Source: Salvelinus alpinus
Taxonomy: Eukaryota > Chordata > Actinopteri > Salmoniformes > Salmonidae
Direction: 5' to 3'
DNA length: 64,000 bases
Assembly: GCF_045679555.1 (NCBI RefSeq)
Contig: NC_092096.1
Span: 13,042,471 to 13,106,470, forward strand
Notes under the pieces: model-generated
What the model was told of the DNA's origin: nothing
The model's input: only the letters and a program-made list of their open reading frames with translations
Databases searched by the model: none
Made by a program: the position numbers and the translations under genes
Shown here: positions 1,848-4,800 of the stretch, piece by piece
How positions within the stretch are numbered: position 1 is the first letter of the stretch
Layout: each line of letters opens with the position of its first letter

Positions 1848-4800
1848 CTGATTAGAACCAGGACCACACAATGGAAATAACCTCAGATGAGTGATAGATG
1901 TAAGGTTGGCTCACTTGGCTGAGGCAGCTGTTATATGTATTCAAATATATAATGAATTGATTGATTGACCTCGATCATATATAGCAGGGCCAGCTCTGTA
2001 GGGACACCACCGTTACAGAACACCTGTATCCAGTTCCTCTGACCACCTGGAGGGCAAAGGGGACACACGTTAAAATGATAGTTCACCTCCAAAATGTTTC
2101 ACTTCCTTTTGACTTCCCTGGGGGTGGGTTTCTTTGTTAAATAAGCTACACTTCAAAAAAGGTGAACTATCCCTTTAAGATCAAATGACTTACGCAGGTG
2201 TTTGTATGTTTAAAAAAACACATATCACTGACTGAGGCAGACTAAGCCATCCAGTAGCAGGCTGTTGCTTACTGGAGTGTGGCCTGACTGGGGTGTGGAC
2301 TGAATGTCTCTAGAGAGTCATTTAGTCTAGCTGCTGGCCTAGCTGCTAGCCTAGCTACTGGCCTAGCTGCTGGCCTAGTTGCTGGCCTAGTTGCTGGTCT
2401 AGCTGCTGGTCTAGCTGCTGGCCTAGCTGCGGGCTGCTAGCTGCGGGCCTAGCTGCGGGCCTAGCTGCTGGCCTAGCTGCTGGTCTAGCTACTGGTCTAG
2501 CTGCTGTTCTAGCTGCTCGCCTAGCTGCTGGCCTAGCTGCTGGTCTAGCTGCTGTAACTCGTTACCTTCTTTATAGTCAGAGTCTAGCTGCTGGTCTAGC
2601 TACTGGTCTAGCTACTGGCCTAGCTGCTAGTCTAGCTACTGGTCTAGCTACTGGCCTAGCTGCTGGTCTAGCTGCTGGTCTAGCTGCTGGTCTAGCTGCT
2701 GGTCTAGCTGCTGGTCTAGCTGCTGGCCTAGCTGCTGGCCTAGCTGCTGTAACTCGTTACCTTCTTTATAGTCAGAGTCTAGCTGCTGGTCTAGCTACTG
2801 GTCTAGCTGCTGGTCTAGCTACTGGTCTAGCTGCTGGTCTAGCTGCTGGTCTAGCAGCTGGTCTAGCTGCTGTAACTCGTTACCTTCTTTATAGTCAGAG
2901 TCTAGCTGCTGGCCTAGCTGCTGGTCTAGCTGCTGGTCTAGTTGCTGGTCTAGCTACTGGTCTAGCTACTGGTCTAGCTGCTGGCCTAGCTGCTGGCCTA
3001 GCTGCTGGCCTAGCTGCTGGCCTAGCTGCTGGCCTAGCTGCTGGCCTAGCTGCTGGTCTAGCTGCTGGCCTAGCTGCTGGCCTAGCTGCAGGCCTAGCTG
3101 CAGGCCTAGCTGCAGGCCTAGCTGCTGTAACTCGTTACCTTCTTTATAGTCAGAGTCTAGCTGCTAGTCTAGCTGCTGGTCTAGCTACTGGTCTAGCTGC
3201 TGGTCTAGCTGCTGGCCTAGCTACTGTAACTCGTTACCTTCTTTATAGTCAGAGTCTAGCTGCTGGTCTAGCTACTGGTCTAGCTACTGGTCTAGCTACT
3301 GGTCTAGCTACTGGTCTAGCTGCTAGTCTAGCTGCTAGTCTAGCTACTAGTCTAGCTGCTAGTCTAGCTACTGGTCTAGCTACTGGTCTAGCTGCTATAA
3401 CTCGTTACCTTCTTTATAGTCAGAGTCTAGCTGCTGGTCCCTTGCTGCTGTAACTCGTTACCTTCTTTATAGTCAGAGTCTAGCTACTGGTCTAGCTGCT
3501 GTAACTCGTTACCTTGTTTATAGTCAGAGTCTAGCTGCTGGTCCCTAGCTGCTGTAACTCGTTACCTTCTTTATAGTCAGAGTCTAGCTTCTTCTTGACC
3601 TCTTCTTTCCAGCGTGTCAGCTTGGAGGAGGTGATGAAGAAAGCCAGCAGGGCGGAGAAGAAACTCATGTTGGCCATGGTGAGGATGAAGCCGACCAGCA
3701 GGGCTGTAGGGACAGGGAACAAGAGCATGAAAACAATGCAACTCTAACACACGTGCCTGATCCCAGATCTGTTTGTACTTGTTTATAGCCAACTCTTTTG
3801 GCCGTTGTTACGACCACGTGTTTGTTTGACATAACAACAGCCACAGGAGCTGGCTCTAACAGATCTGGGACCAGGTTACAAACTAGGTCTAACTACCTTA
3901 TCAGAACATCTACTCTCGCCGTATAATGTTTGAGAAAATCCTGATGAAAGTGGCCATTTTATGCCCTTTTTAGACCTACTGTATATATGCCTCCTGTAAG
4001 ACCTTATGATCTGTACACGATACAGACATCTTGTCGTCAATATACTCCTTATAGTGTACCATATGGAGTATGTCTTGATTATGAAATACATTTTTTTATT
4101 TTTTTAACATTCATTTATTAAACATTAAATATTCATATAAATTTCTGAATTTTTTCTTTATTTTTTATTTAGTTCATTTTAAGACATTGTTTGGAACAAT
4201 ATACTCTACAAATACATCACATTACCAGAGTGGGCTCTCTGATAATTTAAGTTATGGTACATTTTATGAACACCACTAACACAGTGAATGGGAAAATGGA
4301 TTCAAAAAGAACTCCCTCTGCTGGTGATTTGCTGAATGTGCAATCATGTGATTGGTTAATGACCTATAATGTACATTTCTATGTATAAAATGGGTTATAT
4401 CTTAAAGTACCAGAGAATCCAATCTGAAATTTGACATCTTTGAAGAGTATATTGTTGAATTAATATTCATATTTTTTGTTATGTTGGGTAAAGTAAATGT
4501 GGTAACACTTATTTCTGAATCTAGATGTACTCCATATTTGAGAGGACACTATAATGAGTATATTGACTCCAAGATGTTGTCTGTATCATGTAAGGTAAGG
4601 GTCATAGGGTCTTACAGGAGGCATGTATAGCTTTAAAAAGAGCCTAAAATGAACAATTCCCTCATGATTTTCTCAAAAATAGTTTGTGATACAAATGTCA
4701 AAATGACCTTCCTCACAGATTCTATGTGAGAATTGCCAGAACAATCTGCTATACCAAAAATATTTCTGGGCTATTCTGCTGTGGAATGTACCAATTAGTA

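Follow-up and report, generated by a model that had tools for sequence, protein, structure and literature searches.

A human IFI6 minisatellite with multiple splice donors was reportedly described by Turri et al. in 1995. The IFI6 minisatellite consists of 26 copies of a 12-mer. According to a paper citing the 1995 study, two downstream repeat units of IFI6 (6-16, G1P3) act as splice donors and give rise to three mRNA species (PMC4526556). The VNTR6-1 repeat in TERT intron 6 occurs in alleles of different length and has a 38-bp unit tied to G-quadruplexes; it was subjected to functional tests and acts on splicing (PMC11830802). In potato RdRp, a tandem duplication across a splice border made a new intron (PMC4974935). 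In DOK7, SRSF1 bound upstream of the intron-distal donor favours the intron-proximal one (PMC5585400).

The array reported here was found on the minus strand of the window, by which is meant the whole stretch of 64,000 nucleotides that was analysed, at 13042471-13106470 of its contig in an assembly of 2.37 Gb. It runs from the end of exon 3 into intron 3 of a gene with DUF92 membrane-protein exons, which we take to be TMEM19. By analogy, it is a variant of the kind known from IFI6, the closest precedent: as in that gene, a minisatellite lies at an exon-intron border and several splice donors lie downstream of the exon. The basic unit of the IFI6 repeat resembles a donor by itself and two units are reportedly used, whereas in TMEM19 the donors reside in a rarer 39-bp block with real exon sequence and are candidate donors. 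With TERT VNTR6-1 the array shares an intronic position, variation in length (between probable alleles in TMEM19) and the involvement of splicing and nonsense-mediated decay (predicted for TMEM19); unlike the functionally tested TERT repeat, it carries exon-derived donors. The potato RdRp case is alike in that a segment duplicated across an exon-intron border copies splice signals, but there the acceptor side was copied and a new intron resulted, whereas in TMEM19 only the donor side was copied, many times, within a minisatellite. In DOK7, too, donors of one intron compete and use of the wrong one leads to a truncated protein (predicted for TMEM19), and the SRSF1 effect makes decoy use in TMEM19 possible in principle; in contrast to the two different DOK7 donors, 11 nt apart and under SRSF1 control, the nine TMEM19 donors are identical and spaced by 51 to 255 nt. 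No account of the TMEM19 array was noticed among titles and abstract openings retrieved, mainly from outside the subscription literature, for minisatellite donors, TMEM19, competing donors, intron gain and salmon minisatellites.

Exons 3-5, when joined, matched DUF92 (PF01940) on the minus strand with E = 9e-39. Exon 3 was placed at 3566..3703 (minus strand, 138 nt, donor GT at 3565), exon 4 at 1970..2046 (minus strand, 77 nt) and exon 5 at 1670..1847 (minus strand); exons 6 and 7 lie to the left of the window. The acceptor AG of exon 4 is at 2048-2047, in agreement with the original prediction of an acceptor next to 2047, and intron 3 is about 1519 nt long. A candidate exon 2, sought at the first of two copies of the locus only, has its 3' end at window position 10976 (minus strand). 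Exons 3-7 were open and gave equal matches at both locus copies. A 328-codon ORF (9202-10185), oriented like TMEM19 and nested between its exons 2 and 3, encodes a rhodopsin-type receptor, to which the closest solved structure is hydroxycarboxylic acid receptor 2 (E = 2.1e-38). Intron 5 holds, from its tenth base (1601-1669), a 59-bp copy of the exon 5 interior (54/59 identical) with a donor-like GAG/GTGAGG (GT at 1644, score 10.3); the true exon 5 donor, CAG/GTACAC, is weaker (4.2), and GT 1644 lies 25 nt beyond it, such that its use would shift the frame.

The compound minisatellite (about 2325..3590, minus strand) is built of 12-bp units and 39-bp exon-border blocks, makes up 82% of intron 3 and also covers the last 22 coding nt of exon 3. 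Its units are anchored on CTAG in the sense direction and are mainly CTAGACCAGCAG (19 copies), CTAGGCCAGCAG (17) and CTAGACCAGTAG (15). The 39-bp block is composed of CTAGACTCTGACTATAAAGAAG, the 22-nt end of exon 3, followed by GTAACGAGTTACAGCAG, the 17 nt with which intron 3 opens. It occurs nine times, once at the real border (3549..3587, GT 3565) and eight times downstream in the sense orientation (all minus strand): at 3496..3534 (decoy 1, GT 3512, one change, at -4), 3445..3483 (decoy 2, GT 3461), 3392..3430 (decoy 3, GT 3408, one change, at intron +12 by script count), 3221..3259 (decoy 4, GT 3237, one change, at intron +15 by script count), 3122..3160 (decoy 5, GT 3138), 2867..2905 (decoy 6, GT 2883), 2744..2782 (decoy 7, GT 2760) and 2549..2587 (decoy 8, GT 2565). 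Successive donors are separated by 53, 51, 53, 171, 99, 255, 123 and 195 nt, in that order, which equals 39 + 12n except for the two spacings of 53, where a 14-bp spacer is present. With a 33-bp block probe and up to 3 mismatches, nine matches were obtained in the window (eight exact, one with one mismatch) and none in any of 100 shuffles. The coding end of exon 3 is thus itself a repeat unit of the array, and that the copies carry the genuine exon end along is the peculiarity of intron 3. Tandem repeats make up about half of the window at large (31.8 of 64 kb masked, positions 1-64000), including many long minisatellites with different units.

Positions -3 to +6 are identical at all nine donors (AAG/GTAACG). 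When 60 GT sites between 2047 and 3710 were scored, these nine ranked highest, at 7.19 versus 6.38 for the next site and 12.63 for the consensus donor; the scores derive from human donor frequencies and are rough, while the identity of the nine sites is independent of them. The predicted U1 duplex of the nine donors was -6.5 kcal/mol, and by duplex energy alone a GT at 2086 was slightly stronger (-7.0). The 12-mer units are not donor-like, scoring at most 0.45 versus 7.19, and donors occur only in the 39-bp blocks. The original prediction had described eight blocks that match the end of exon 3 plus its donor, lie downstream in the intron in the orientation of transcription, and would give up to nine near-identical donors; each of these points was borne out, with 22 exonic and 17 intronic nt per block, eight additional donor GTs on the minus strand (3512-2565) and nine identical 9-mers in sense. 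By inspection of the sequence, the AG/GT of the block is not immediately preceded by a pyrimidine-rich stretch, and only the border block was copied.

Reading past the donor at 3565 adds 11 residues (not shown) and then meets an in-frame stop at 3531..3533 (minus strand, derived position), 56 codons along the reading frame of exon 3. A stop about a dozen codons past the true donor, with truncation on decoy use, had been predicted and is indeed encoded. All eight decoys would yield the same truncated product because the stop precedes the first of them, by 18 nt to the new junction for decoy 1 and, for the remaining seven, by 69 to 965 nt. Nonsense-mediated decay would be expected for all decoy mRNAs, because more exons follow. 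By its predicted reading frame, then, the array is one poison extension on offer and no isoform set. The decoys lie 53 to 1000 nt from the true donor, and their use would lengthen exon 3 to 191, 242 and 295 nt for the first three and to 466 to 1138 nt for the rest. In vertebrates, long internal exons are usually poorly defined, and for this reason the first three decoys are the realistic ones. RNA folding of the genuine border block (z -1.52; 17/200 shuffles folded as well) and of a stretch with proximal blocks (z -1.27; 20/200 shuffles) was not notable. One distal 12-mer tract folded strongly (z -3.61; 0/200 shuffles), as is expected of self-complementary repeats. RNA structure was not adopted as part of the mechanism.

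The eight decoy blocks differ from the exon copy by 3 substitutions in 312 nt, and by none in the 72 donor nt. At an even rate the probability of no change in 72 donor nt is 0.50; because such a result is thus obtained half the time, the intact decoy donors are no evidence for selection, nor, given so few changes, against it. Donor-like sites were also counted more widely. In the surrounding 270 kb or so, one strand held 313 and the opposite strand 950 9-mers whose score equalled or exceeded that of the true donor, in a scan that spans both locus copies and therefore counts many clusters twice. Many of the high-scoring clusters lie in unrelated minisatellites, such as the GGGGTGAGA, CTGGTGTGT, AAAGTGAGA and GGGGTAAGT arrays. 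By intron, donor-like sites numbered 78 in the 12,808 nt of intron 5, 6 in the 7,272 nt of intron 2, and 8 in the 1,518 nt of intron 3. Decoy density alone is nothing special, and clustered donor-like sites are common in this repeat-rich region. A 99-bp duplication at 8405-8585 carries a donor-like GAGAG/GTAAGA in both copies. Judging by its motif, the sequence that it borders is presumably a Tc1-like element end; as a second exon-border repeat the duplication was set aside, having no TMEM19 match and this apparent Tc1-like neighbour.

Near-matches flank the border 39 bp apart, AAGAAGCTAGACT in the exon and ACAGCAGCTAG in the intron, and exchange at CTAG would make the border block a unit. In a genome search with the 12-mer stretch, seven further contigs were matched, and one stretch from each was compared (L036-L042). 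L036:3770-5090 contained a 12-bp array of about 110 copies, among them the exact unit CTAGACCAGTAG 13 times, without the exon block; its flanks matched only as short pieces. L037 and L038 contained CTAGACCAGCAG 11 and 8 times, respectively, in 13-bp arrays; in L039-L042 the three main units were matched 3, 1, 0 and 0 times, respectively. The donor sequence was present in none of these seven stretches. The shared 12-mer may reflect chance convergence, or the exon end may have been captured by an existing 12-mer array; both are possible. Growth of the array from the exon border, as first proposed, is accordingly retained as only one of two possible orders, because a block-less array on another contig shares the exact 12-mer.

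A second, near-identical TMEM19 locus was found on the same scaffold, 85.6 kb away. A run of 100 N at 50867..50966, read as an assembly gap, separates the copies: the aligned first copy stops about a dozen bases before the run and the second starts right after it. Outside tandem repeats the copies diverged at 67 of 30,299 aligned bases (0.22%), and 13 deletion events between them were counted in one direction. They are very probably alleles, as would arise from contigs of two haplotypes whose overlapping ends were left unmerged. A recent tandem duplication of about 85 kb, which would make the array difference one between paralogues, agrees with the presence of two copies 85.6 kb apart on one scaffold but is improbable, given how they abut the 100-N run in the manner of an unmerged contig overlap and how little they have diverged. 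Up to window position 6,412, the copies are told apart by four substitutions and two indels. Both indels, of 24 bp (two 12-mers) and 2 bp, and two of the substitutions fell in the array, and none of these in a 39-bp block; the nine blocks were unchanged in number and sequence. It had been suggested that copy number may vary between individuals; between these two probable alleles array length did vary (24 bp, 2 bp) but donor number did not, being nine and nine in the two copies compared. In a protein search with 10 scored candidates, the counts being lower bounds, at least six matches were obtained, three exons at each of two loci, and no third TMEM19 locus was seen among the matches listed. 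Searches with the exon 3 probe likewise placed the 39-bp block at two loci only among the matches listed (at least 16), with seven of the eight decoys shown at each locus. Beyond the gap at 50867-50966, the sequence restarts a locus that already occurs 83 to 93 kb further left, and the window's right-hand end thus probably represents the second haplotype of a neighbouring stretch.

We propose that a tandem repeat next to the donor of exon 3 incorporated the final 22 coding and initial 17 intron bases as a unit, and that this unit spread to eight further intron sites, either by slippage or by unequal exchange anchored on the common CTAG. The pre-mRNA would then offer nine donors equal in local sequence. 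The splicing machinery would mostly use the first, because the full exon lies directly upstream of it, and the nearest decoys would leak at some level, with extensions of 53, 104 and 157 nt and an exon of up to 295 nt. The leaked mRNA would carry the early stop and should be removed by nonsense-mediated decay, leaving a small load on TMEM19 expression and no regulated switch. To this reading, a captured border block spread by the repeat with leaky, decayed decoy use and a small TMEM19 load, we assign a rough probability of 0.55. It is supported by the nine identical best donors, the single truncation, the difference in array length and the absence of visible constraint, and the downstream repeat-unit donors of IFI6 were counted in favour of leaky decoy use. 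Three points were counted against it: the 78 donor-like sites of intron 5 are compatible with such sites being wholly ignored, the intact decoy donors could reflect selection invisible in a small sample, and the 12-mers elsewhere without the block bear on the order of events.

In the strongest alternative, no decoy is ever used: exon definition confines splicing to the donor at 3565, leaving the array as silent intron filler. The true donor alone directly follows the full exon, and donor-like clusters are common in local minisatellites while the exons are still open, as if such sites might be generally ignored. Against this, each decoy comes with 22 nt of authentic exon end plus 17 nt of authentic intron and is not set apart by local context, and repeat-borne donors are used in IFI6 (PMC4526556); silence of all eight decoys is considered a tentative second choice. 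Improbable, too, is a functional array, in which U1 binding to the decoys would reduce or adjust TMEM19 output via the shared poison extension, more or less strongly according to array length. In its favour, any decoy use has an equal result because all decoys share one stop, array length varies, and an influence of intronic tandem repeats on splicing is documented for TERT VNTR6-1 (PMC11830802), but constraint was not detected in the decoy blocks, donor number was equal in both locus copies, and similar donor-like clusters occur in unrelated arrays. It is likewise very doubtful that a hypermutable minisatellite has made nine competing donors into an allele-dependent dial on TMEM19 output through that extension, even if array turnover could rewrite both splice choice and the coding end because the coding exon end is a repeat unit. 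As read from its sequence, the captured border block most likely reflects neutral growth of the repeat, accompanied at most by a leaky and decayed splicing by-product.

The locus is a natural setting in which to study how 5' splice sites are chosen: with nine identical local sequences, one acceptor and one stop, junction counts alone would isolate the effect of position, since sequence hardly varies. Here, moreover, the coding end of an exon sits inside a repeat array whose length differs between two locus copies. If the decoys are silent, the array shows how well exon definition protects a gene; if they are used, it shows the mutational load that comes from repeats.
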